Assembly: GCA_024655945.1 (NCBI GenBank)
Contig: JANLFK010000002.1
Coordinates: 306,610-370,609, forward strand
From: a candidate division KSB1 bacterium
Lineage (GTDB): Bacteria; Zhuqueibacterota; Zhuqueibacteria; JANLFK01; Oleimicrobiaceae
Direction of reading: 5' to 3'
Length of the DNA: 64,000 bases
Made by a program: the position numbers and the translations under genes. Positions 11,166 through 28,614 of the stretch are shown here, piece after piece. Every line of letters begins with the position of its first letter. The first letter of the stretch is position 1. Below the pieces are notes generated by a model. That model made no database searches and had not been told where the DNA came from. It saw nothing but the letters and a program-made list of their open reading frames with translations.

Positions 11166-12212
11166 TCATAGCACCAGCTTAAACCCCCTTTTCATGGCCG
11201 CATCGAAATCACCGATGAAAATCCACCAGTTCGTCAGCGGGCGGCCATCGTATTCGAGACCGTTGTCCGCGCCGGGAAGGCTTTGCATCCACAGGATGAA
11301 CCAGTCGAGGCTGTTGCAGTTCCAGCGTTGGCAGTTCACCTGCTTGCGCTGCCCTGTGCCGTCGGGTCGCCAATCCTCTATGTCAGTCCACACCAGGCGA
11401 GGGTTCTTCCAGTCATAGTCTCGTTCGGCATTGGGCGGGTAGTGCGCCCAGCCGCACCCTGGCCTGACAATCTTGTGGGTCTTGTCGCTCCCCACGAACT
11501 TGCCCCAGAAGAGCAAGTTCGGCCACTCGTCCTCTGGCGTCGTATCGCGGCCATCCACAAAGTTCAACACCGCCTCGATCTGGTGCATGTGGTCCTCGAT
11601 GGCCTCGGACAGTCCGCGCTGATAGTTGTAGTGGTACAAGGTGTACGTCTTGCGAAAGGTCGGCAAGTCGTTGGGGTCGCGGTCGCTGTTGCTCACATCG
11701 CCAAACGGCCCCGCCATGTTCGATTCCCACAGGTCCAAGACGCCGCCATGGTAGGCCCACAACCAAATCTCCTTCACGCCTCTCTTTTCGACCCAATACT
11801 CAGCGTCGATGCGCTTCACGACCGCGTAATAGTCGGGCACCGGGCGAGCGTGGCCGGGCTTGAAGCACAATGGCAAGGGTTCGAAGAACTCGTGCTTGTG
11901 CAGGATCTTGTACTTCAGACTCGGTTTCGCCGCTGGATTCTTGTATCCCCGAAAGCGGGAGCCTTCTTCCAGGCATTCGGCGATCCTCTTGGTGAGGCTG
12001 TCGGTCTTGGCTCGCGTGAAGGCAAGGCTCCGCCCCCAATCTCCGGTCACGGCTATGTTAATGGAATCGCCTGCTAAGGGATAGTAGCACACGACCACCA
12101 CCGGCACAACGAAGGGAGGCTTTGGCACCGAGCCTGCGCATGCTTGCGCCGCCACGCCGAACACCCACCACATGACTGCGCACAACAGGCCCAATGTCAA
12201 TCTTGAAAGCAT
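11166..12212 (-). CDS. Secreted HYPPN-family protein without sorting tail
   Basis: 348 residues with a signal peptide (MLSRLTLGLLCAVMWWVFGV, cleavage near AQA). Nearly the whole mature protein matches the central domain of the following 690-residue protein. Shared landmarks are VKEIWLWAYHGGVLDLWES, HYNYQRGLSEAIEDH, HYPPNAERDYD, NCQRWNC and NWWIFIGDFDAA. The clustered His, Asp, Glu and Cys positions could form a metal site with a disulfide, but I recognise no catalytic family. It lacks the FlgD-like C-terminus, so it is probably periplasmic, whereas its paralogue is exported. ATG at 12212 has GGAGG 7 bases upstream. Function unknown. Confidence 0.75.
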   Translation of the reverse strand: MLSRLTLGLLCAVMWWVFGVAAQACAGSVPKPPFVVPVVVVCYYPLAGDSINIAVTGDWGRSLAFTRAKTDSLTKRIAECLEEGSRFRGYKNPAAKPSLKYKILHKHEFFEPLPLCFKPGHARPVPDYYAVVKRIDAEYWVEKRGVKEIWLWAYHGGVLDLWESNMAGPFGDVSNSDRDPNDLPTFRKTYTLYHYNYQRGLSEAIEDHMHQIEAVLNFVDGRDTTPEDEWPNLLFWGKFVGSDKTHKIVRPGCGWAHYPPNAERDYDWKNPRLVWTDIEDWRPDGTGQRKQVNCQRWNCNSLDWFILWMQSLPGADNGLEYDGRPLTNWWIFIGDFDAAMKRGFKLVL

Positions 12213-12309: not shown

Positions 12310-15300
12310 CTATCGGACAAGAACTATCTTCCCCTGCCAAGTGCGCTTATCTGCCTTGAGCACATACAAGTAAAGGCCGGAAGCGACAGGCCTCCCCAGC
12401 GCAGTGCCGTCCCACTCTGCGCGATGGAGGCCGGCAGGCAGGTGTTGGTCAACCAGGCGTGCCACCTCCCGCCCTGCCAGGTCGTAGACGCTCAACCGCG
12501 CCTCGCCGTCTTGTTTCGTCGGGAAGACAAATGTTGCCTGGGAATTGAAAGGATTCGGGAAAACGGCCACGGCCACAGGGGGCGCCGAATGCGGAGCTAC
12601 TTCTTCTTCCACCCGCATGCCCACCTCGTCCAGGTCCAGAAGCATGCGCGCCACCACCCCAGTCCAAATGTACGTGTGCAGCCAGGAGTCCGAGGGACGG
12701 GGTGCATCGCAGGAGTAGGACTCGTAAAAGTCGTGATAGTCGCGGAGCGTCGCGATCACCCCAGCAAAGAGGCGCTCGGCCAGCTCGCGCGCCTCATCGT
12801 AGAAGCCGTAAGCCAGCAGGCCTCGAAACACGAGGAAGTTCCACTCCGGGTACACCGAATGAGCATCGTAGCCGTCGTAAGGGTCACTGTGCGCGAGAAG
12901 CGGCACGCCGTAGGGCCGCCCGAAGGTATCAGGGTTGCGCAGCTGCGCCAAGAGGTAGCGCGCCTGGGCCTGGTTAGCCACTCCCGCCCATAGGGGCAGG
13001 AAGCCGATGAGCTCCTTGCGGCGCAGATCGTTGGCCGAGCGATAGGTGAAAGTGTGGGTATGCTTGTCGACGTGGTAGTAGAACCGCGTCTCCGGGTCCC
13101 ACATGAGCGCGTTGATGGCGTCGGCCCGTGCCTGGGCAAGGCGTTCCCAATGCGCGCTTTCTTCCTGCTTTCCTAGGAGAGCCGCCATGGAAGCCAGCGC
13201 CTTCTCCTCCATGACCAGCTCGCAATTGAGGTCGAGGGCTTCCACCTTGTTGGCGTTGTGGGGATCCGAGTAGCCGCCCAACAGGTCCCAGATCACGTTG
13301 TAGTCCCTCACCGACTCCAAGAAAGCATCGCCGCCCCATTCGCAGAGGCCATCTCGATCGTCGTCGCGCTCCCGCAGCCAGAAGTTGTGGAACCTCACCC
13401 CATAATCGTACATGTCCCTGACAAAACTGGTGTCGTGCGTCACCTGGAAGATCTGCCACGTCTCCCAGTTGAACCATGGCGCTGAGGAAGAGTACTCGTT
13501 GGCCCAGTAGAGCAGCTCGTTGAGATAGGGGCCCACACGGTAAGGGATGTAACCATCGGGCCACTCGCTCCGGCTGTTCATGCGCTCGGCGTAGAGGCGC
13601 TGCGAATTCTGGGCGCCCACCGGGTCCATATAGGCGTATGCCAGCATCGCCAGGCTTTCGTGAAAAACCTGGCCTCCGTGCCCCCATCCCCATGTTGGTT
13701 CTCGCGAGAAAAGATAGTAGTTGAAGGAACATTCGCCTTCCGGCGGCATCATGCATTGGCGCATCATCGAGAAGGCGCTCCAGTACATCAGGCGGTGGTC
13801 GCGGCTCGGCCATGCCAGGCGCGGGATGCGCGCATAGGCCGCCTCGTCCTCGCGCAGCGCCTCTTCCATGTCGTAGGCCATGAGAGCCTGGCAGACCATG
13901 GCCAGGCTGTCCACGTTGCCTCCCTCCTCGATGACGCCGCGAATCAGGCGGATGCTCTTGGTCTCGCCTGGCTGCAGTGACATAGAGCGCTGCACCGCCA
14001 CGACGCGGCACTCCTCGCCGATGAGCCCGGACAGGCGGGGGTTGTTGACATCTGCGAAGAAGGACGTCACCGCTGGCCGCCCCACCTCGGCGGAGCGCCA
14101 TCCCCAGGTGCCGTGCTGGTCGCGGCCGACAAGCACGTACCGGTAGCTGCTGTCCGGGTCGAGCGCCAAGTCGAGGTAGCCAGGGTCGGTGAGCTCCTGG
14201 GCAATCAAGTCGTAGCGCCCTGGCGTGCCGGAGGTCCTCCGGTAGAGGGTGTAGCGGCAACCAGGCTCTGGCACCCAGCTCACCACTGCCGCCTCGTGGT
14301 TAGCGGCAAAGTGGACATGCACGTCGCGGGGTGCAGGTGGCAGCGAGGTGGGCGCGAGCCTGAGGTCAATCCGCACGCCCGATGGCGCAGGCAGTTCCCC
14401 CACGGCTGCCCCTGCTGCGCCCTGTTCCCCCGTGGCGTTGCACGTAAAGACCACGATGACCGAATCGCCGACCCTGAGCGGCGGGCGAAGAAAGTTGCCC
14501 AGCTCGCAGCCCTGGAAACCATTCCCCGGAATGTTCGGGTCTGGATCGCCCCACTTTGGTGCATCTTCGGTGAGAATCTCGCCCTGGCTGTCCGCGCGCG
14601 TGATCAGCTGTTGCACCAAGGGTGGCTGGTGCGTGCACAGGGAGCCGTCCGCGTGGTGCACCGTGCCCCACTCCACGCAGTAATTGCCACCGCGCGCACT
14701 ACGCGCCAGGGGCGGCCCAGGCGGCTCGCCCAGGCTCGCATAGCCGCCATACGCCTGGGCCGGTGCATCCAGAACAAGAATATCGGTTACGTTGCGGCAA
14801 TAAGGAACCCCATGCGCAAGGGTCCACCAGTCTGGAGGCTCCTCATGGGAGCAGACGAAGCTGCGCGCATCCTCCCTCATCGCCGGCGCCCGAAGCCCTT
14901 GGGGGTGATGGAGAAACGCGTAGGCGTCCACGACCTGTGCGGCTGCGCCCGAGTTGGTGATTGCCAGTTCTTCGATGGCAATCCGTGAGCTGTAGACCTG
15001 AAAGAAGACCTCCACCTCGATTTCCGGAAACGGTCGCATGCGCAGCTTCACCAAGTCGCTATACGAGGCTATAATCACGGGCTCCTCCGCCAGGTCGCGC
15101 ACCTGGTAGTGCACTACGCCCCCCACTCTGAAGGCAAGACCAAGGGTGCCCCCATTGTCGGTGGTGAACTCCACCCCGCGCTCCGGCTCCGAAAACTTGA
15201 GCTGATACCCTTCGTCCAAGACGAACTGAGAGCGCGCCACAGGCGCCGCATAGGTGGTGAACAGAGGGTCGCGGCCCGTCACAGCCAATTGCGAGAGTTC

Positions 15301-15378
15301 GTGTTGCGGCCACCCCAAGGTCGCCCAGGCAAGAACGACCGCCTCTATCATAGCAACCGCAATAAGCCGCCGGGTCAT
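12310..15378 (-). CDS. Secreted GH63-like glycosidase with inserted module and sorting tail
   Basis: A 1022-residue exported enzyme. After a signal peptide (1-24) comes a beta-sandwich (about 30-230). An unrecognised module follows (236-330, with HADGSLCTHQPP, DPNI, CELGNF and ATGEQG), then a fibronectin-III-like domain (348-436). The (alpha/alpha)6 domain (480-915) resembles GH63, with DDRDGLCEWGGD (672-683), WNFLVFRGLLAYGF (846-859) and FYESYSC...YIWTG (884-906). In GH63 the Glu of the last motif is the catalytic base and the Asp of the earlier motif the acid. The FlgD-like sorting domain starts at FPNPFNSQATF (940) and ends IVLVR. The substrate is unknown; alpha-glucosides or alpha-mannosides are possible. 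The module is shared with the adjacent metalloprotease, 15 bases upstream. Confidence 0.8.
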   Translation of the reverse strand: MTRRLIAVAMIEAVVLAWATLGWPQHELSQLAVTGRDPLFTTYAAPVARSQFVLDEGYQLKFSEPERGVEFTTDNGGTLGLAFRVGGVVHYQVRDLAEEPVIIASYSDLVKLRMRPFPEIEVEVFFQVYSSRIAIEELAITNSGAAAQVVDAYAFLHHPQGLRAPAMREDARSFVCSHEEPPDWWTLAHGVPYCRNVTDILVLDAPAQAYGGYASLGEPPGPPLARSARGGNYCVEWGTVHHADGSLCTHQPPLVQQLITRADSQGEILTEDAPKWGDPDPNIPGNGFQGCELGNFLRPPLRVGDSVIVVFTCNATGEQGAAGAAVGELPAPSGVRIDLRLAPTSLPPAPRDVHVHFAANHEAAVVSWVPEPGCRYTLYRRTSGTPGRYDLIAQELTDPGYLDLALDPDSSYRYVLVGRDQHGTWGWRSAEVGRPAVTSFFADVNNPRLSGLIGEECRVVAVQRSMSLQPGETKSIRLIRGVIEEGGNVDSLAMVCQALMAYDMEEALREDEAAYARIPRLAWPSRDHRLMYWSAFSMMRQCMMPPEGECSFNYYLFSREPTWGWGHGGQVFHESLAMLAYAYMDPVGAQNSQRLYAERMNSRSEWPDGYIPYRVGPYLNELLYWANEYSSSAPWFNWETWQIFQVTHDTSFVRDMYDYGVRFHNFWLRERDDDRDGLCEWGGDAFLESVRDYNVIWDLLGGYSDPHNANKVEALDLNCELVMEEKALASMAALLGKQEESAHWERLAQARADAINALMWDPETRFYYHVDKHTHTFTYRSANDLRRKELIGFLPLWAGVANQAQARYLLAQLRNPDTFGRPYGVPLLAHSDPYDGYDAHSVYPEWNFLVFRGLLAYGFYDEARELAERLFAGVIATLRDYHDFYESYSCDAPRPSDSWLHTYIWTGVVARMLLDLDEVGMRVEEEVAPHSAPPVAVAVFPNPFNSQATFVFPTKQDGEARLSVYDLAGREVARLVDQHLPAGLHRAEWDGTALGRPVASGLYLYVLKADKRTWQGKIVLVR

Positions 15379-15393
15379 CTTTGCGTCCCCGCG

Positions 15394-17808
15394 CTAACGG
15401 ACCAGTGTAACCTGCTGTCTGCGCACCAGCATCCCGTTTGTGAGGCGACACCAGTAAACACCAGTGGGCGCGGCCAAACCGTACTGGTCCTTTCCGTCCC
15501 ACTGTACCCGGTATGTGCCAGCCGGAAGCTCCTGAGCAATCAGTGTCCTGATCAACCTGCCGCTCACATCAAAGATGGCCACTTGCGTCTGGCCTTGTCC
15601 CGTGGTGCTATAGGCGAATTCCGTACTTTGGTTGAAGGGATTGGGAAAGGCTATGCTGAGCGTGCAGGTGGTTTGTGGCTCCTCTCCTGAAGCAGTCAGG
15701 ACGGTGGTCTTGGGCACGAGATTCACGCGCAACTCGTGCCGCCCCACTTCGATATGGCCCCGCCAATACTCCATGTTAAAGTCCGTGGACTCCAGAAAGC
15801 CATACCCAACTCCCCCTCCGTGCTCCACCCTGACAATGAGCACGGCGTTGGACAACCCATAGTCGTGGACAATCACGCCGGTTGCAGAGAATGGACAGCG
15901 CCCAAGGTAGACATTCCCTGCGTCATCGGCGAAAAGGAGCATGTCCGCCTTGTCGTCGAAGTACTTGCCGTACCACACCCCTGGCTGTCCAGTCGCACGA
16001 TAGACAGAGACCTGGGCACCGGGCAAGGGGTTGCCGCCGTTGTCTTTCACGGTCAGACAGTTCTCAAGGGGCAAGTCCTGCATGAATGCTCCGATGTTTT
16101 CCGGAGCGTTGTAGTTGCCCTTGGTTGCACGATGGCCCGCGATGAGATTCAAAGCCACAGCACTGTACCGGTCAATCCAGGTGTACTCCCCATTCATCAG
16201 CCCTTTGTACGGGGTGTAGTGCACCGCGTCGCCACCCACGAGCGGCATGTAAGGAGTGCCCACGATGAGCCGACCTCCTTCCATGATGGCAACGGTGCTA
16301 CCACTGCCGTTGTCGTGGACGTTGAAGCCATAGAGGTCAATCAGGTAGCGTGCGTGCCCCAGTTCGTGGAGCAGTGAGCCTTCGAAAAAGAAGGGGTTGC
16401 TATCGCTGATACTCTTATGGTTGGCGTAGAAGCCGCTCGTCAGCAAGCTGGCAGGAAAACCCCACTGGAGGTCGACGGTGCGATCCTGCAAGTTGGGGGT
16501 GTTTGTCGCCAAACCTCCGGCAAGAGGGAGCCTGCCATCGGGCACCACGGTGATATGGTCAATGCGCAGGCGGTCCAGCACACCCTCCGGAGTCTCGGGA
16601 TAGACCGCGTTGGCGAACATTTGGTTCCAGCGGCGCACGTGACGCTGCGCCCAATCCTCCCAGGAATTGGCATGTACCCCCAACTCCTTCTGGTACCGGT
16701 GAAAGTAGTCGTACACGCTCTGCTCGACATAGAAACCAACGCTGAGGGCGTTGGTGTAAATGAGAACGGCGTTGTTGCCCTCCTCCTCTTCAGGTACTTC
16801 ATTGTCCGGGTCGATGACGAACTCCAGTTCATGGCGCGCGAAGGTCCATGGCGAGCTATAGTCGACGGTCGCCATGCCCGAGTCGGGCAGGTCCACCAGG
16901 CCACGCGCCACCTCCTCGCCGTCGAGGAGCCAGGCGTACGGGACAGCCGACATGTCCTCGGCGGCCCAGTTGCGGATATGAGCGCGCCAGGTCACCAGCT
17001 CCCCCGGCCTGGGCCATCCTTCCACTGCCGGGTCGCTGCTCCCCCACACGTAGCTGAGGCGCGGCAGGCGGGCAATCCACCCGACGTCCAAGTCGGCACC
17101 CGCCACGATCTCATTGACCTCCTCCGAGTGGGGGCCCCAAGTGCCCGATGATGACCGGGCAAAGACCACGTAGCCATAACTCGCACCCGGCGCCACAGCA
17201 GAGTCGGTGAAACTGCTTGTGAAGAGCCCTTCGGCCATCAGCTGGTACTGCCTGCGCGCCAGACCACCAGCCACCGTGTCCTGCAGCGCCCGCCGATAGA
17301 CGGCGTAAGTGGCGTTGGGGATTGCCTCCCACGTCAGCTCCCGATGGCCGCGAATGTTCCGGTGCAGGCGCAGTCCTCGCGGGCGCGCAGGCATCTGCAC
17401 CTTGGCCAAGTACAGCGTAGAGGGCCAACGGTACCAGGGGATGGCATCGATCCGTTCGGCGAGAACGCCCTGCTCCCCGGCCGCCTCACAGCAAAAACGC
17501 ACTACCACGCAATCCCCCATTGCCACGGCTGGCGAAAAGTTGCCCAGCTCCACGCCAAAGGTACCCTTGCCGTCGATGTTCGGATCCCCGCCCGTGTCCC
17601 AGCGAGGCGCGTTCTCCAGCAGAATGCGCGACTCGTCCCCGTTCAAGAACACCGTGAAGCTCGCCTCCGGCGGCTGATGGCGGCAGAACTGCCCGTCGGC
17701 GTGGCGCACAAAATTGCGGAAATAGATCCACTGACTGCCAGCCGGCACCACCCACGATGCCAAGCCGACGAGGACGAGAGGCCTAAGCCATGACCTTGCT
17801 GATGTCAC
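15394..17808 (-). CDS. Secreted HExxH zinc metalloprotease-like protein with CARDB and sorting domains
   Basis: An 804-residue exported protein. A signal peptide (1-25) is followed directly by the unrecognised module seen in the neighbouring glycosidase (28-125: HADGQFCRHQPP, GDPNI, VELGNF, AAGEQG). Next are a fibronectin-III-like domain (about 140-235) and a CARDB-like adhesion domain (about 243-350, with PDNEVPEEEEGNNA). A peptidase-like region holds the zinc motif HELGH (481-485) in a membrane-anchor-free context. The end is a FlgD-like sorting domain from FPNPFNQSTEF (721) to VTLVR. The third zinc ligand is not obvious to me; a Glu or His in the following 60 residues could serve. Start GTG at 17808 follows GGAGG. 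Likely first gene of an operon with the three genes below it. Confidence 0.8.
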   Translation of the reverse strand: MTSARSWLRPLVLVGLASWVVPAGSQWIYFRNFVRHADGQFCRHQPPEASFTVFLNGDESRILLENAPRWDTGGDPNIDGKGTFGVELGNFSPAVAMGDCVVVRFCCEAAGEQGVLAERIDAIPWYRWPSTLYLAKVQMPARPRGLRLHRNIRGHRELTWEAIPNATYAVYRRALQDTVAGGLARRQYQLMAEGLFTSSFTDSAVAPGASYGYVVFARSSSGTWGPHSEEVNEIVAGADLDVGWIARLPRLSYVWGSSDPAVEGWPRPGELVTWRAHIRNWAAEDMSAVPYAWLLDGEEVARGLVDLPDSGMATVDYSSPWTFARHELEFVIDPDNEVPEEEEGNNAVLIYTNALSVGFYVEQSVYDYFHRYQKELGVHANSWEDWAQRHVRRWNQMFANAVYPETPEGVLDRLRIDHITVVPDGRLPLAGGLATNTPNLQDRTVDLQWGFPASLLTSGFYANHKSISDSNPFFFEGSLLHELGHARYLIDLYGFNVHDNGSGSTVAIMEGGRLIVGTPYMPLVGGDAVHYTPYKGLMNGEYTWIDRYSAVALNLIAGHRATKGNYNAPENIGAFMQDLPLENCLTVKDNGGNPLPGAQVSVYRATGQPGVWYGKYFDDKADMLLFADDAGNVYLGRCPFSATGVIVHDYGLSNAVLIVRVEHGGGVGYGFLESTDFNMEYWRGHIEVGRHELRVNLVPKTTVLTASGEEPQTTCTLSIAFPNPFNQSTEFAYSTTGQGQTQVAIFDVSGRLIRTLIAQELPAGTYRVQWDGKDQYGLAAPTGVYWCRLTNGMLVRRQQVTLVR

Positions 17809-17907: not shown

Positions 17908-18732
17908 TCAGCTCGCGACCAGTGAGCGCATGGCCACCAGCACACCAAGGGCAACAATCACCACGGCACCCGCCACCGCCACGGCAGTGGTGCCCCAGGC
18001 GGGCAGGCGGCCTTGGGCCAGGCGCGCCCCCCTCACCACGACAACGCCTAACACCACCATCACCACTGCCATCCCCAGGCTAAAGCTGGCCACAAGGGCC
18101 AACCCAAGGGGGACCTTGTGCATCGATATGGCCAGGAGCAAGATCACCAGAGCCTTTGGGCACGGCACGAGCCCACCGGAGAAACCTAAGGAGATCGCGC
18201 CCCACCACGTTCGCGGCCCCACAGACACGCCTTGTGCGTGGTGGTATTCGTGTTCGTGGTGATGAAAATGTCTCTCATGAACATCACCACCGTGCCAGGA
18301 CGCTTGCTCCTGGCCCGTTCCCCGCGATGAAAGCGAGGTCTGCCGCCTCTTGAACACAGCCCTGATCCTCGCGAAGAGCAACCAAAGCCCGATACCAGAG
18401 ACGGCCACACCGGAGCCCAAAGAAAACCATCTTGCAGCTCTTTCTGGCCAAAAAAAGTCAGTGACCCAGAGAGCCAGCAGCGCAACGACCACTACCACCA
18501 AGACGTGGGAAGCTGTCAGAACAAGAGCAAGCAGCACCGCATCGGGAATCCGTCCCTGAGAGCTGACCAGATAGGCAGCCATCAGCGACTTGCCATGCCC
18601 TGGGCCGAGGGCGTGCAGAGCTCCCAGCAGGAAAGCAACGCCAAGAACCGCCAGCGCAAACAGGGGGCTCACGTGCTCATAGTAAAGCACCTCTTTGACC
18701 AGGTCTTGGCTCACGGCTGTCACCGAGTGCAC
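17908..18732 (-). CDS. NicO-family nickel/cobalt transporter
   Basis: A 274-residue membrane protein that moves Ni2+ or Co2+ across the inner membrane. The family signature GALHALGPGHGKS lies in the first membrane region (about 36-48). A second conserved patch, GFSGGLVPCPKALV, is in the second half. Between them is a cytoplasmic loop with a histidine-rich stretch (RHFHHHEHEYHHAQ), as in metal-handling members such as RcnA. About six hydrophobic segments are visible. The GTG at 18732 overlaps the end of the upstream gene by 13 bases; GTG at 18723 is an alternative. Import or export cannot be decided. A nickel-dependent LarA homologue elsewhere in the window makes uptake worth considering. Confidence 0.85.
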   Translation of the reverse strand: MHSVTAVSQDLVKEVLYYEHVSPLFALAVLGVAFLLGALHALGPGHGKSLMAAYLVSSQGRIPDAVLLALVLTASHVLVVVVVALLALWVTDFFWPERAARWFSLGSGVAVSGIGLWLLFARIRAVFKRRQTSLSSRGTGQEQASWHGGDVHERHFHHHEHEYHHAQGVSVGPRTWWGAISLGFSGGLVPCPKALVILLLAISMHKVPLGLALVASFSLGMAVVMVVLGVVVVRGARLAQGRLPAWGTTAVAVAGAVVIVALGVLVAMRSLVAS

Positions 18733-19442
18733 CGGAAGCGGATTTTCAACTTCGGGTACTTTCCTTTGCGAATACGCAGCACAGTCTCGTCGTAAAACAC
18801 GCCGCTGATGACCACCATGTCCAAGTCCCGCTTGATATATCCCGGGTACGTGGACAGGAATGAAATGGAGGGCGAGCCGATAACACGAAGCTGGAGCAAT
18901 CTGCCGATCGCCCGCTCCTGCTCATCAGTGAAGGCCACCCTCTCTTTGGCCAGATCGATGAAGTGGTTCCCGCAGATGAAGAAGAGACGGGGGTCTGCCT
19001 CCAGATCATGATCCCCCGGCGAGAGCTGGCCACTTTCGACCAGGAACACCATGCGCAGCCTGAGCGGCGCAAGCAGGCTGTCGGCGAGCAGACCAGGCGC
19101 CTCACACTCCACAAGGCGCATGCGGGAGCGCCGGCCACCAATGCGCAACGGCTCCTGTTGCAGCAGGTCATTCAGCGAGCGGGCGAACTCTGTGAAAAAA
19201 TCTTCTACCTCGGCGGCGCTGAGCACGGTGTCGGCATTGGTGTCGATCATGTTGCGAATGTGCGGCGCAAGCTGGCCGAGATAGAGGGATTCGTATTGCA
19301 CAGTGATGAGCGTCGGGTCGACGTGCACCCAGACTTGGTCGCGCATCTCTTCAGGGGTTTGCGAAAAGCGGTAACCGTGCGCCGCCAGCGGCTGGGTGAG
19401 CGTCACCAACAGGAGGAGCGCTGCGCACCGACTCGTCACCAT
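18720..19442 (-). CDS. Exported EF-hand protein paired with the NicO transporter
   Basis: 240 residues with a signal peptide ending LAAHG. A textbook EF-hand loop, DTNADTVLSAAE (about 68-79), has D, N, D, S and E at ligand positions 1, 3, 5, 9 and 12, so calcium binding is likely. The rest is beta-rich and resembles the periplasmic proteins often found beside, or fused to, NicO and DUF1007-type metal transporter genes. Its stop codon overlaps the start of the transporter gene, so the two are translationally coupled and probably work together, for example as a metal-binding partner. ATG at 19442 has only a weak ribosome site. Confidence 0.7.
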   Translation of the reverse strand: MVTSRCAALLLLVTLTQPLAAHGYRFSQTPEEMRDQVWVHVDPTLITVQYESLYLGQLAPHIRNMIDTNADTVLSAAEVEDFFTEFARSLNDLLQQEPLRIGGRRSRMRLVECEAPGLLADSLLAPLRLRMVFLVESGQLSPGDHDLEADPRLFFICGNHFIDLAKERVAFTDEQERAIGRLLQLRVIGSPSISFLSTYPGYIKRDLDMVVISGVFYDETVLRIRKGKYPKLKIRFRCTR

Positions 19443-19550: not shown

Positions 19551-20492
19551 TCAGAATTGCGCATTGACGCCTATCCGTTGCGCAGCACCCAACAGGCCAA
19601 AGTCGCTGTAAGCGTAATCCAATCGGAAGCACAGCCCACCCACATCCACTTGCAGTCCGCCGCCGAAGGAGTAGCGCGCCACATCATGATTGAGACGATA
19701 GCCACTGCGGAGGAAGAGGAGATTCTGGTAGCACCACTCTGCGCCAACCTCCCCCAAAGGGCGGCCGTCGTTGGGCTTCATGGCGGAGAAGCTTACCGCC
19801 AGCCTCTGTGCCTGGCCGTCGATGGCGTTGATGGCCAGACCAAAAGTAAAGTTCGTGGGCAACGGGTACGATTCGTGCACGAACTTGACTTCCGAGCCGA
19901 AATTGGCGATCTTCATGCCGAAGCGAAAACCGCGAAAGTGGGTCACGTAGAGGACGGCGATGTCCGCCGCCACAGCCGCGCCGACGAAATCAGAGTACAG
20001 CGCCATGCGGATGTAGTTGAGTGTGCCGCCAAAAGTGACACGGTCGGTCAAATAGCGAGCGTAGCTGAGTCCTATGCGATAGTTCCCGGCGTAGAAGGTC
20101 TCGCCGGTGCCGTCTGGCTGCAGGGGAGTGCGCACCTTCATCTCGTCGGTGTAAAGCGCGGTGGCCGAGAGCGCAAACGTGCCGGCGCGGCCAAAGGTGC
20201 GGGCTGCCGCCACATAATCGTGGTTGATGCCCGCAAACCAGCCCGTATGGGTGAAAGCCACAGCATTGCCCGGAATCCAGGCTAAGGCAGCTGGGTTGTA
20301 GTGAGCCGCCTCGGCGCCGTCGACCATGGCAATGAACGCGTCGCCCATGCCTGCGCCTCGGGCGCTGACGCCTATCTTGAGAAACTGCGCATCAGTACTG
20401 CCAGGGCGCTCGTACTGGGCGACGACCACGGCCGGCAGGAGCAGCACCACCCCCAACCATTTTCGATACGCAAGCTTCGTCTTCTTTCTCAT
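19551..20492 (-). CDS. PorV/PorQ-family outer-membrane barrel protein
   Basis: A 313-residue predicted beta-barrel with a signal peptide (MRKKTKLAYRKWLGVVLLLP, cleavage after VVAQ). The family N-terminus is evident: SARGAGMGDAFIA followed by GAEAAHYNPAALAWIPG. The rest is alternating strands ending in aromatic Phe (IGVNAQF), typical of outer-membrane barrels. PorV is the shuttle that carries type IX secretion cargo to the cell-surface attachment complex; the related PorQ acts elsewhere in the pathway. I cannot decide between the two subfamilies. It follows two secreted paralogues by 15 bases and is probably co-transcribed with them and with the TonB receptor. No other type IX component is visible here. 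Confidence 0.8.
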   Translation of the reverse strand: MRKKTKLAYRKWLGVVLLLPAVVVAQYERPGSTDAQFLKIGVSARGAGMGDAFIAMVDGAEAAHYNPAALAWIPGNAVAFTHTGWFAGINHDYVAAARTFGRAGTFALSATALYTDEMKVRTPLQPDGTGETFYAGNYRIGLSYARYLTDRVTFGGTLNYIRMALYSDFVGAAVAADIAVLYVTHFRGFRFGMKIANFGSEVKFVHESYPLPTNFTFGLAINAIDGQAQRLAVSFSAMKPNDGRPLGEVGAEWCYQNLLFLRSGYRLNHDVARYSFGGGLQVDVGGLCFRLDYAYSDFGLLGAAQRIGVNAQF

Positions 20493-24221: not shown

Positions 24222-27068
24222 TCAGTCCAATGACCAGTCAATGCTCGTTCCTATCTTTACGTGCCGGCCCGTGGAAAACTGCCGTGGGTCCATGAGGCTG
24301 TAAATCTTGTGCCAGCTCAGGTACTGGTAGACATTGATCGCCGTCAACTGCGGGTCCACGTCACCGTACTTGTAAGGTTTGCCGGTGAGGGTGTTGAACG
24401 CATAGCTGATCTGCGTGTTCTTCTCGCCAAAGAGGTTGAAGATGTCGACGAACAGCGAAAGGCGCGCCGGCCCAAAGTTGAACGACTTGCGAATTTTGGC
24501 ATCAGTGGACATGGTCCATGGGCCGCTGGCAGAGTTCTCGGTCTTCTGAGCCACCACAGGATCGAGGGTGAAAGGTGTGTACGGTTGCCCAGAGGAGACC
24601 CGCGAAAGGATGGTCACGTTCCAGTTATCAGGAAGCTTGAGGCCAAACATCTTCGGGTTCTTCTTGGGCGGAGCCTCCAACATCGCCTGCAAGATGAACT
24701 GGTGGCGAACATCCCACCCCAAGCGGCGCTCTCGGATGGGTAGAGGGAAATCGGTGAGCGAGCGGATATAGTTCTCAAAGGCGGATGACGAATAGCCTGT
24801 CGCCCACTGCACTGTGTAGTTCAACTTGCCTGAGGTAAAATGGGAGTACCTCTTCACCAATTCGAACTCCAGACCACGCGCTCTGGCGTACCCTTTGTTG
24901 TCGTAGAGATAGACCGGCAGGCCAAGAGCCGCCAGCAGTTGCGTCGTCTCCACCTGCTTGGAGATGTCCTTGGTATAGCTCTTTACATCAATGGCCCAGT
25001 CACTGAGGAACTGGTGCGTGAAGCCGAACTCGTACAAGATTGTCTGCTCAAAGTCTAAGAAGGGATTGCCCGTAAAGCCACCCGTGTAAGGGTCGCGGTA
25101 CAGGTACTGCAGCTCGGGGAACTGGTTAAAGTGCCCGTAGGAGAAGAAAATCACCGTGCGGTCGGAAATGGGGAACGAGATCCCGAAGCGCGGGCTTATC
25201 TTGTACTTCAGCTGCTTCCAATTGGCGCGCAAGCCAGTGGCCTCCTCCCAGGCTTTCTTCCACGCCTTGTTCTCCACCGTCGAGCCCAAGCGGAGCCAGT
25301 CGGCGCGGACTCCCGCGTTGATGATCAGCGACCCCTTTTCGAACTTGTCCTGTATGTACCACCCGCCGCTGGTTGGGTAAGCGGTGAACACCCAACGATT
25401 CTGACCAAACTCCTTGTACGGCCCGTTCGGGGCCGGGAACGGGGGCTCGTTCTTGAACACGTACTGCCCGTAGTTGGAGAGCTTTACCCCGCCATCCTGG
25501 ATGTCGACATAGTGAATATCGTTGGACTGGACCAAGAAACCCGTCTTCACCAGATGCTCAGGGTGGATCTGCGAAGTGATGTCGGCCTTCACCGTCAGCG
25601 TCTTGGTGTGGTCGTCTCGCCAAATGTTCTCGTAGCTCTGGGCATCAAAGAAGCCATAGCCGTCCGTGGTCGGTGCCTTAATGGTGGACTTGAGCGAGTC
25701 TGGCGCTCCTGAGAAGTTACGAACATAGGTGTAGTAGTCGTACTCCACTCCGTCCTTGTAGAAGCGCCAGAAATCGGCAGGCGACTTGCCGTCCAGCGAG
25801 CCGGTATAGTCCACAGTCAGATAGCCAAGATTGACGGTGTAGAAAGTCGCCGGCGAAAGCGTATGGTTCACACGCAGCATAAGGTTCTGATTGTTGCGCG
25901 CATACTCGGCCGTGTGGTCAGGATAGTTCTTCCACAGCCAGTCAAAACTGCTCCAGCTCTTCCAGGAGCCGTGGTAGGAGAAGCCCAGGTCCAGCTGCTG
26001 CGTCAATTGCCAGCCAATCTTGGCGTTGAAGTTGCCGTCGTTGTCTTGCTTTTCCCTAATCCTCAAGCCGAGGACATTGATATCGTCGCGCTTGCGGTGG
26101 TTGTTGTAGGGTGTGTCCGAAAGGGTGCCGTTGCCCGACAAGAAGAAGCTCAAGGTACCCGGCAAGCGGAGCCCCCGCGCCGCGAGCAACCGCGACACCG
26201 GCTCAGGCCCCCCGAAGTAGAAGGAACCGTAGTCGGTCGCATAGGTGTTGAACATCTCAGAGGACTTGTACTCGACGCCGCCTTCCAGTCGTTGCCCTCC
26301 GGAGCGCGTAGTGATGTTAACCACCCCCGACTGTGCCTGGCCGTACTCGGCATTGAACGCTCCAGTCAGCAGCTCCATCTGCTTGATGTCCACCACGTTG
26401 AGGTTGAGCACGTCCCGCCCACCGTAGATGGGGTGCGTCACTGGTACGCCGTCCACCATGAAGAGAATCTCGCCACCGCGGCCGCCGCGCACGTGGATGT
26501 CCTTGACGCTCTCGTCGCGCACCTGGAGCCGCGTGCCATCCCCGAAACGAATGGCCTGCGGTGCCGCATCGATGACAGCGCCCCCTTGCAAAAGGAAGAG
26601 GTCGGTTGTCCTCTCGAAACCCGGGGTCTGCTCGATCTGCTCGCGGCTTGTCGTTTTGCGCGTAGAGGTGATGTCCAGCTGCACCAGCGGCTCTTCGGCC
26701 ACCACCACCAACTCGGGAAACTCGATGGCCGTCGGCTCCAGCTCAAAGTTGACGCGCGTGGTGAGGTCTACCTTCACCTCCACATTGGCCACCGTCTTGG
26801 TGTGATAGCCGATGTATGACGCTGCCACCTCGTATCTGCCAGGTGGCACTTGCAGGATGTAGTACATCCCCTTTGCATCGGTGGCAGCTCCTAAGGTGGT
26901 GCCCCGTACCATCACGTTACAGGCCATCAGCGGCTCTTTGGTCTGCTTGTCGACCACCATGCCGGCGATCTTGCCGGTATTTCCCGCCCAAAGCTGATGG
27001 CCCCACAGGACTGCTGCCAACGCTACCAAGGCAAGACTACGCTGCCTGAGCACCATCGTTTTCCTCAT
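24222..27068 (-). CDS. TonB-dependent outer-membrane receptor with N-terminal carboxypeptidase-regulatory-like domain
   Basis: 948 residues. Signal peptide (to about residue 30), then a carboxypeptidase-regulatory-like beta domain (about 31-112: GKIAGMVVDKQTKEPLMACN, PPGRYEVAASYIGY). A plug domain (about 125-235, with VRGGRGGEILFMVDGVPV and GAFNAEYGQAQSGVVNI) and a 22-strand-type barrel follow. This architecture is that of SusC-like and other receptors that import large or scarce substrates across the outer membrane using TonB energy. ATG at 27068 is preferred over GTG at 27074. It sits between two lipoprotein genes and two secreted proteins, all close together. No SusD homologue is recognisable. 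The substrate is unknown. Confidence 0.9.
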   Translation of the reverse strand: MRKTMVLRQRSLALVALAAVLWGHQLWAGNTGKIAGMVVDKQTKEPLMACNVMVRGTTLGAATDAKGMYYILQVPPGRYEVAASYIGYHTKTVANVEVKVDLTTRVNFELEPTAIEFPELVVVAEEPLVQLDITSTRKTTSREQIEQTPGFERTTDLFLLQGGAVIDAAPQAIRFGDGTRLQVRDESVKDIHVRGGRGGEILFMVDGVPVTHPIYGGRDVLNLNVVDIKQMELLTGAFNAEYGQAQSGVVNITTRSGGQRLEGGVEYKSSEMFNTYATDYGSFYFGGPEPVSRLLAARGLRLPGTLSFFLSGNGTLSDTPYNNHRKRDDINVLGLRIREKQDNDGNFNAKIGWQLTQQLDLGFSYHGSWKSWSSFDWLWKNYPDHTAEYARNNQNLMLRVNHTLSPATFYTVNLGYLTVDYTGSLDGKSPADFWRFYKDGVEYDYYTYVRNFSGAPDSLKSTIKAPTTDGYGFFDAQSYENIWRDDHTKTLTVKADITSQIHPEHLVKTGFLVQSNDIHYVDIQDGGVKLSNYGQYVFKNEPPFPAPNGPYKEFGQNRWVFTAYPTSGGWYIQDKFEKGSLIINAGVRADWLRLGSTVENKAWKKAWEEATGLRANWKQLKYKISPRFGISFPISDRTVIFFSYGHFNQFPELQYLYRDPYTGGFTGNPFLDFEQTILYEFGFTHQFLSDWAIDVKSYTKDISKQVETTQLLAALGLPVYLYDNKGYARARGLEFELVKRYSHFTSGKLNYTVQWATGYSSSAFENYIRSLTDFPLPIRERRLGWDVRHQFILQAMLEAPPKKNPKMFGLKLPDNWNVTILSRVSSGQPYTPFTLDPVVAQKTENSASGPWTMSTDAKIRKSFNFGPARLSLFVDIFNLFGEKNTQISYAFNTLTGKPYKYGDVDPQLTAINVYQYLSWHKIYSLMDPRQFSTGRHVKIGTSIDWSLD

Positions 27069-27095
27069 CGTCACGTTCTCTTGAGCAAAGGGACA

Positions 27096-28559
27096 TCAAT
27101 AGCCGAGACTCCTGAGCATCTCCTGGGCCATGCGCGCGGCATCCACCTCCTTGATGAAGAACATCGGGAAGCCCAGCACAATGGCGTCGAAGCTGGTGCC
27201 GTAGTAGCGGATGCCGACGGGGTAGCCCCGATAGGTCGGGATGCCCACATAGTCGTCATTCTTGTAGCGCCAGATGACGCTGGTAAAGCCGGCGCGCCGC
27301 GGCATGACATTCACGTACTGTAACCCGATCACAGGAATCGAGGTCAGGTACGACTCGGAGAGTTTCAGCGAGTCCACGCGGATGCTGCTGAAGCGCAGCG
27401 TGTCGCTGGAATAGGCGCCATTGAAGTCAGGAATAGGCGGCGACTCATCGGCCACCATGATGTGCAGGTAATCGTAGATAAAGTCCCCCTCGCGGAAGCT
27501 CTTGGGAAATGGCTCGGCATGGGCAAACGACTTGAGGATACGCCACCCTCCCATAATAAAGTCGCCACCCACGTTCAAATAGTCGATGATGTCGTTAATG
27601 TGCTGCGGCAACCTGTGCACATCGCCCTCATAGGTGAAATAGTTATCCGCATGCCAGACCAACAGCTTGTACTCGCCCAGCACCTTCTTGGGAGGCATGC
27701 CGTTCTTCTCAAAATCCCAAGAGTCGCGCGTGCCAAAGATGCGCGCATAGAAGCTGTCCACGTCGGCGTCCTTGAAGCTGATGCCGAAGGGGAATTTCGA
27801 CTCCACCGTCTCGTCGATGATGAGAATGGGCTTGCTGAAGGTGGGTTTGATGAGTTCCACCGTGACCGCATCCCCCACCGGATCGACCAGGTTGGTGTTG
27901 TCGCGGCAAGTGGCGCGAAGCGTGTGCTTGCCGTCCAACGGCACAAAGTGCTCCGGGCCGATGTAGACAGATGTATCCGCCATCCAGTGCCACTCACCGT
28001 CATCAACGGCCCAGGCAAACTCCACCACTTCGCCGTCCTGGTCCCGCGCCCGAAAGATGAGGTGAATGCCCAGCCACCAGTCGGTGGTCTGCTCGATGAC
28101 AAAGAACTGCTGGTTCTGCGTCGGGGTCAAGATCTCCGTAGTGGGGAAGACCGTTTGATAGGTGTAGAACCATTTCTCTGCCGGGGTAGGGTCGACGTCG
28201 CCGTCATTGTCCACTGCGCGCACCTGGAAGCGCTGGCGGTTGAGCACATCGCTCGATTCGAAGGCGATGGTCGCACGGGTCTGCTCGCTGCGCGTCCATG
28301 CCTGCACCACCGAGTCGCCGGCGTGCACGTGATAGGTTATGTAGCGGTACTCGTAGCCGGCGATGTAACCGTCGTCGTCTTCGCCGTCCCAGTGCAAGGT
28401 GACAAGAGCAAACAGCGTGTCCCCATCCACCGGGATGTTCGCCACGGTCGTGTTGGGGGGAAGATTAGGACGCGCAGGCGAAGTCTTGCGTGCACAGCCG
28501 AACCATGCCACACCTATGGCCAGAGCGAGCAGAAAAGCGGACGTCACCACACGCTTCAT
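27096..28559 (-). CDS. Lipoprotein with fibronectin-like and C-terminal alpha/beta region
   Basis: 487 residues. The signal peptide ends in the lipobox AWFGC, so the mature protein is lipid-anchored. A beta domain with LHWDGEDDDGYIAGYEYRY and a repeat-like RARDQDGEVVEFAWAVDDG follow; both are Ig/FN3-like units with the GxDDDG motif common in FCB surface proteins. The C-terminal half (about 255-487) begins KPILIIDETVESKFPFG and contains LLVWHADNYFTYEGD and YLNVGGDFIMGGWRIL. It looks like an alpha/beta fold related to glutamine-amidotransferase-like or ThuA-like domains, but no catalytic triad is identifiable. ATG at 28559 follows GAGGTG with 9 bases spacing. It is 27 bases from the TonB receptor and probably a surface partner of it. 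Confidence 0.75.
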   Translation of the reverse strand: MKRVVTSAFLLALAIGVAWFGCARKTSPARPNLPPNTTVANIPVDGDTLFALVTLHWDGEDDDGYIAGYEYRYITYHVHAGDSVVQAWTRSEQTRATIAFESSDVLNRQRFQVRAVDNDGDVDPTPAEKWFYTYQTVFPTTEILTPTQNQQFFVIEQTTDWWLGIHLIFRARDQDGEVVEFAWAVDDGEWHWMADTSVYIGPEHFVPLDGKHTLRATCRDNTNLVDPVGDAVTVELIKPTFSKPILIIDETVESKFPFGISFKDADVDSFYARIFGTRDSWDFEKNGMPPKKVLGEYKLLVWHADNYFTYEGDVHRLPQHINDIIDYLNVGGDFIMGGWRILKSFAHAEPFPKSFREGDFIYDYLHIMVADESPPIPDFNGAYSSDTLRFSSIRVDSLKLSESYLTSIPVIGLQYVNVMPRRAGFTSVIWRYKNDDYVGIPTYRGYPVGIRYYGTSFDAIVLGFPMFFIKEVDAARMAQEMLRSLGY

Positions 28560-28614
28560 GGGCTTGGTCACCTCAGCATCGGTTCTTGCGAATTGCCCCC
28601 GCCTCCACTGTCGT

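Follow-up and report, generated by a model that had tools for sequence, protein, structure and literature searches.

A predicted β-sandwich module shared by a GH63-like glycosidase and an adjacent metallopeptidase in a KSB1 gene cluster

Little is known about protein and glycoprotein uptake in KSB1, Calditrichota and related uncultured bacteria of sediments. The question arises at one locus within a 64,000-nucleotide stretch of a KSB1 contig (referred to here as the window), where a preliminary description had reported a ∼95-residue module, followed by an FN3-like domain, on two unrelated enzymes, a GH63-like glycosidase (GH) and an HExxH metallopeptidase (MP), and had suggested that both act on the same material. 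What is this module, and what might it do on two such enzymes? The GH and MP genes lie next to each other on the same strand, with 15 bases between them. Inspection of the window located both open reading frames at the positions described and all of the named motifs (HADG..C.HQPP, L.E.AP.W, DPNI.G.G, ELGNF, GD.V.V.F.C and GEQG).

Alignment of GH residues 240-432 with MP residues 34-231 by BLASTP revealed 38% identity (E 3e-30). When the two parts were aligned separately, the module scored 198, against 27 ± 4.7 (maximum, 58) for 1000 shuffled sequences, and the FN3 part scored 127, against 26 ± 4.7 (maximum, 50). These values, far above those of shuffled sequences, bear out a shared two-domain unit on unrelated enzymes, consisting of a ∼115-residue all-β module and then an FN3 domain. 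The module is real, but the length first given to it was slightly short, the folded module comprising about 110-115 residues. Identity between GH and MP is 44.6% over the module, compared with 38% over the whole unit. The FN3 assignment is supported by the match of the MP domain to 3mpc in Foldseek (Table 1). A second similarity between GH and MP, at the C terminus and outside the module, corresponds to the T9SS sorting tail. The genome contains only these two copies of the module.

Table 1. Features of the gene cluster in the window; residue numbers refer to the encoded proteins.
Feature	Position	Strand	Remarks
p491, core protein upstream of TonB receptor	27096..28571	-	
TonB-dependent receptor with CarboxypepD_reg N-domain	24222..27074	-	
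Two LDW proteins, 620 and 624 aa	20508..24241	-	paired core proteins, conserved C-terminal tails
PorV-like outer-membrane protein, cluster core	19551..20492	-	PF19572, 27.8 bits (cut-off 27)
Secreted 240-aa partner of NicO	18720..19442	-	no Pfam match; co-occurs in related clusters
NicO-type metal transporter	17908..18732	-	PF03824, 4e-21
MP, secreted HExxH metallopeptidase, 804 aa	15394..17808	-	signal peptide, module, FN3, CARDB 267-347, catalytic domain, T9SS tail 721-804
Module in MP	17389..17733	-	residues ∼26-140, directly after signal peptide; AF2 pLDDT 94
FN3 of MP	17104..17385	-	residues ∼142-235; Foldseek 3mpc TMt 0.75, 34% identity; phmmer 3mpc E 4e-4
MP catalytic motif			HELGHARYLID, residues 481-491
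GH, GH63/MGH1-like α/α-barrel glycosidase, 1022 aa	12310..15378	-	N-domain, module, FN3, barrel 456-916, T9SS tail
GH N-terminal domain, upstream of insertion	14734..15303	-	residues 26-215; aligns in module-less paralogues
Module in GH	14350..14685	-	residues ∼232-343
FN3 of GH	14077..14346	-	residues ∼345-434; profile vs 3mpc at 345-430, E 4e-9
p11166, 348 aa, no family	11166..12212	-	∼220 aa common with p9059
p9059, 690 aa	9059..11131	-	Big_2, T9SS tail, invariant H458xxE461 and H501

Searches of Pfam with 13 module sequences (E ≤ 10) returned nothing beyond one chance match, and the BACON and DUF1735 profiles gave none on the module; NCBIfam, searched with the whole proteins, also gave no match there. 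The PDB sequence search revealed no relative of the module and PHROGs none beyond chance. AlphaFold2 models were confident and all-β, with a pLDDT of 94.3 for the module with FN3 and 93.6 for the module alone. Foldseek with the two-domain model returned FN3 matches only, and with the module alone no significant PDB fold match (best E 0.2). Some Cna-B or carboxypeptidase-regulatory-like sandwiches appeared among these insignificant matches, and no superfamily was assigned. One IMG/VR scan for a viral origin of the module contained no relative. Within the module, Cys19 is invariant and Cys84 nearly so, consistent with a probable disulfide. Conservation peaks in the loop at 42-59 (APRW..DPNI.G.G) and in ELGNF, beyond the strands alone, and the key residues are kept in every protein context. 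Judged by the predicted structures, the module is an undescribed β-sandwich accessory domain.

The GH barrel matched PF22422 (MGH1-like) above its cut-off (E 4.3e-28); PF03200 scored 16.9, under the cut-off of 22.4. The nearest solved structure is that of E. coli YgjK (GH63; E 2e-35), which aligns over barrel positions only. The invariant E886 aligns with YgjK E727, the established catalytic base of that enzyme; the GH63 base thus appears to be retained. The invariant D692 sits in a motif resembling that of the trehalase acid and is, by motif alone, a candidate general acid. Module-less paralogues of GH occur in two genomes (L038:2275-4416 and L059:9642-11804) and align over the N-domain and barrel, lacking exactly the module and FN3. 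The unit is therefore best regarded as a clean insertion between the N-terminal β-sandwich and the barrel, as had been proposed; loss of the unit from those paralogues would explain the pattern less simply. The preliminary description had left room for the segment being a known domain or a regular piece of GH63, and neither the family nor the PDB sequence searches, nor the extent of the GH63 match, outside which the module lies, point that way; on these alignments, the module is not a regular part of GH63.

In MP, the FN3 domain is followed by the CARDB domain, HELGHARYLIDLY and the T9SS tail. The putative metal ligands of its motif (H481, H485 and D491) are invariant and placed as in HExxHxxGxxH/D, with Tyr at the usual Gly, and M538, considered as the Met-turn of a metzincin site, is also invariant. 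No Pfam or PDB peptidase match was obtained for MP, and the spacing of the putative zinc site fits a metzincin-like site; class 3 relatives carry the standard HELGHQIGLID. Elsewhere, gluzincin-like peptidases (class 2) and metzincin-like ones (classes 1 and 3) carry the module, as does a C25-like protein. On sequence grounds, the carriers include no fewer than two catalytic types of peptidase, and probably three. Class 2 peptidases (L051:7909-10704 and relatives) contain HEVQHAxDALY..GEH.DFQAKMFR, TSP3-like Asp repeats and an IDGVIE..W region resembling CBM9; the class has no Pfam match.

A scan of the genome collection yielded 28 module loci in at least 20 genomes, where the carriers are almost solely secreted peptidases and one glycosidase type. 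The host genomes, all MAGs and hence fragmentary and possibly misbinned, are labelled KSB1, Calditrichota/Caldithrix, Ignavibacteria/Melioribacteraceae, Neomarinimicrobiota and WOR-3, with single MAGs labelled Bacteroidetes and Deltaproteobacteria. The latter two may be misbinned; for the Deltaproteobacteria-labelled L051 this is suspected because its modules adjoin those of the Calditrichaceae MAG L052 in the tree. There are 53 distinct modules, 20 on GHs, 28 on peptidases or peptidase-like proteins (11 class 1, 11 class 2, 4 class 3 and 2 C25-like) and 5 on truncated or unassigned frames, and an FN3-typical pattern follows the module in 50 of the 53.

Both enzymes of the window matched the T9SS sorting profile TIGR04183 (31.1 and 29.6 bits; cut-off, 23), and the genome encodes a T9SS (PorU-like match, 890 bits). 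The features expected of T9SS cargo, a C-terminal sorting domain and a T9SS in the same genome, are thus both present, and we infer that the enzymes are exported by this route and attached to the surface via the C-terminal tail. All 27 full-length module peptidases combine a T9SS tail with a module near the N terminus. By the tail test used, such a tail is present in 7 of 16 full-length module GHs; the GHs of L046, L049, L054, L055, L059 and L062 form a separate branch in which the module is kept and a T9SS tail was not recognised, and these six may be periplasmic. The window's own genome has 22 PorV-family genes (e.g. 19551-20492), and at several sites a gene with an LDW-like C-terminal tail directly precedes a PorV-like gene, as if each PorV-like shuttle had its own cargo.

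The cluster runs on the minus strand from 28571 down to 7399 in the order p491, TonB receptor, two LDW proteins, PorV-like protein, 240-aa protein, NicO, MP, GH, p11166, p9059 and GH1. Around most module genes elsewhere, the same core is found: a TonB receptor, LDW proteins of ∼600 aa in twos or threes and a PorV-like protein. Every module copy found in 82 genomes lies inside the cluster loci examined. The cluster does not conform to a SusC/SusD-type PUL: among the proteins adjacent to the TonB receptor, which carries a CarboxypepD_reg domain, none matched a SusD family, and the LDW proteins stand in that place. No description of the cluster was found in the open literature searched for KSB1 and Calditrichota. 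Several neighbors are of separate interest. The ∼220-aa domain common to p9059 and p11166 has an invariant GHRxES (H458 and E461) and H501, belongs to no family and looks like an undescribed metal-site enzyme. NicO and the secreted 240-aa protein (DTNADTVLSAAE stretch; 17908-19442) are kept beside the metallopeptidase in several genomes, and T9SS proteins with CotH kinase and lamin-tail domains are recurrent neighbors of module enzymes (L037:13469-17131 and L035:940-4545). Further along the window, 38346-59355 resembles an exopolysaccharide/lipopolysaccharide-type biosynthesis region, judged from translations alone.

The module may be an accessory recognition domain of a PUL-like system directed against a shared substrate, probably a glycoprotein, a reading to which we give an even chance. 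The system would comprise the TonB receptor, the paired LDW surface proteins, the PorV-like shuttle and the T9SS-exported enzymes. The C-terminal tail would hold the cargo at the outer membrane and, because attachment is expected there, the N-terminal module of the peptidases would be at the free end, facing outward, where it could capture substrate. The peptidases would then cleave the protein chain, the GH63-like enzyme would take off α-linked sugars and the TonB receptor would import the fragments. The substrate is read as a glycoprotein because several peptidase types and an α-glycosidase are grouped together. Surface location, orientation, substrate binding and substrate type are all inferred for these enzymes. 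Substrate recognition is supported by the occurrence of the module on GH and on several peptidase types, by its N-terminal position on peptidases with a T9SS tail and by the conserved loop. The linkage to LDW genes and the tie to one enzyme set, both described below, also count in its favor, as do the apparent retention of the GH63 base, the T9SS encoded in the genome and the precedent of a mucin PUL. A purely surface role fits poorly, since the six GHs without a T9SS tail retain the module, and no solved or described relative speaks in favor of binding.

Alternatively, the module could be a docking tag that binds a surface protein of the cluster (LDW, TonB receptor or PorV-like), bringing the enzymes together in a single complex on the cell surface. 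This is possible, if somewhat unlikely, and is favored by a strict co-occurrence. In the phylum (82 genomes), all 8 module genomes have close LDW homologues, scoring ≥750 bits, and none of the other 74 does; the probability of this by chance is about 3e-11 with the genomes taken as independent, which they are not, and about 1e-8 when four genomes whose full-length LDW homologues score lower are included. Outside that set, each of the 12 further module genomes has LDW homologues, nearly always full-length. The four genomes whose LDW homologues are more distant (L082, L083, L084 and L085) possess the TonB/LDW/PorV core without the module, and LDW identity there is 49-53%, against 58% and more for the close subfamily. 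This difference also counts in favor of docking, but the subfamily split may merely reflect cluster history, and in these four genomes the core operates with module-free enzymes: sulfatases and a DHDPS-family lyase in two genomes, GH43 and GH2 in one, and an esterase-like T9SS protein with ADP-ribosylglycohydrolases in one. LamG and p491 are also present in three of the four. Because the module-free cores carry other enzymes, the module tracks the peptidase and GH63 enzyme set and not the core. Docking is further weakened by retention of the module on GHs without a T9SS tail and by the distance of the nearest LDW gene, which is ∼38 kb off in one genome and on another contig in others. Co-occurrence alone is insufficient to link module and substrate, given that adjacent genes are co-inherited and the genomes are not independent. 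The earlier idea that both enzymes act on the same material is strengthened by the recurrence of the enzyme set and by the module-free relatives of the core with their other enzymes.

A structural spacer, in which module and FN3 merely distance or stabilize the catalytic domain, is unlikely. The β-sandwich does stand beside FN3 in every architecture, and there is a precedent in BACON and DUF1735, shared N-terminal domains initially described as carbohydrate-binding but nowadays regarded as spacers (PMC11216935); by analogy, this re-reading would count against substrate recognition by the module. However, BACON and DUF1735 join an N-terminal lipid anchor to the enzyme, whereas here the T9SS tail at the C terminus is the presumed anchor and the module occupies either the free end of the peptidases or a site inside GH. 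The better conservation of the module than of the whole unit between GH and MP, and the long non-strand loop among its conserved residues, also argue against a spacer.

In the module tree, the GH modules from several phyla form one group (support 100/98) that includes two unassigned WOR-3 proteins, and among the peptidase modules the branching does not follow enzyme class. Modules on different peptidase classes within one genome are 59% alike, compared with 53% for the same class between genomes (p 0.0005); the FN3 and T9SS-tail controls followed the same trend, and module-specific co-evolution was rejected for this reason. Such within-genome likeness of modules, FN3 domains and tails is what chance swapping of accessory domains between neighbors, with no common function, would produce, but this explanation is highly improbable given the separate GH branch across phyla, the confinement of module copies in 82 genomes to the cluster loci examined and the retention of key residues in all contexts.

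Returning to substrate recognition, a wider and tentative interpretation, which we consider less likely than not, is that the module is a new domain family and the mark of a new PUL-like surface system for degrading glycoproteins, widespread in KSB1, Calditrichota, Ignavibacteriota, Neomarinimicrobiota and WOR-3. In this system, LDW proteins would replace SusD, and the module would steer peptidases from several clans, along with one glycosidase, to one target. Tied to one enzyme set and cluster, the module offers a sequence handle for spotting the system and a way to test directly what it targets. A TonB/T9SS nutrient core without a recognised SusD is, moreover, reused with differing enzymes: peptidases and GH63, sulfatases, or GH43/GH2.

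Among accessory domains of known systems, CBM32 is a known sugar-binding family. The closest worked-out parallel is the mucin PUL BT4240-50 of B. theta, which combines shared CBM32 domains with an M60 peptidase and GHs (PMC11992087). Like the module, CBM32 is there an accessory domain, one that a surface peptidase has in common with a glycan-binding protein, and the TonB/SusD locus concerned is directed against a glycoprotein (PMC11992087); the module differs in having no sequence or significant fold match. BACON (PF13004) and DUF1735 (PF08522) of Bacteroidota PULs resemble the module as non-catalytic β-sandwiches shared by several unrelated enzymes from glycan-use loci; the mucin peptidase BT4244 also carries BACON (PMC11992087). 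Those domains are mostly at Bacteroidota lipoprotein N termini (PMC11216935), whereas the module, which matches neither in Pfam, occurs on proteins with a T9SS tail in KSB1, Calditrichota, Ignavibacteriota and other groups and is inserted within GH. GH itself shares with GH63 (E. coli YgjK and MGH1-like hydrolases) the barrel, the probable base at E886 and an N-domain before the barrel, but departs from it in the module-FN3 insert and the T9SS tail. Finally, the cluster resembles T9SS cargo with cognate PorP/SprF or PorV shuttles in having sorting-tailed enzymes and a PorV-like gene beside likely cargo (PMC12618676, PMC9143113). No SusD homologue was recognised in the proteins scanned, and the cluster is set apart from known T9SS cargo/shuttle pairs by its TonB receptor and paired LDW proteins.
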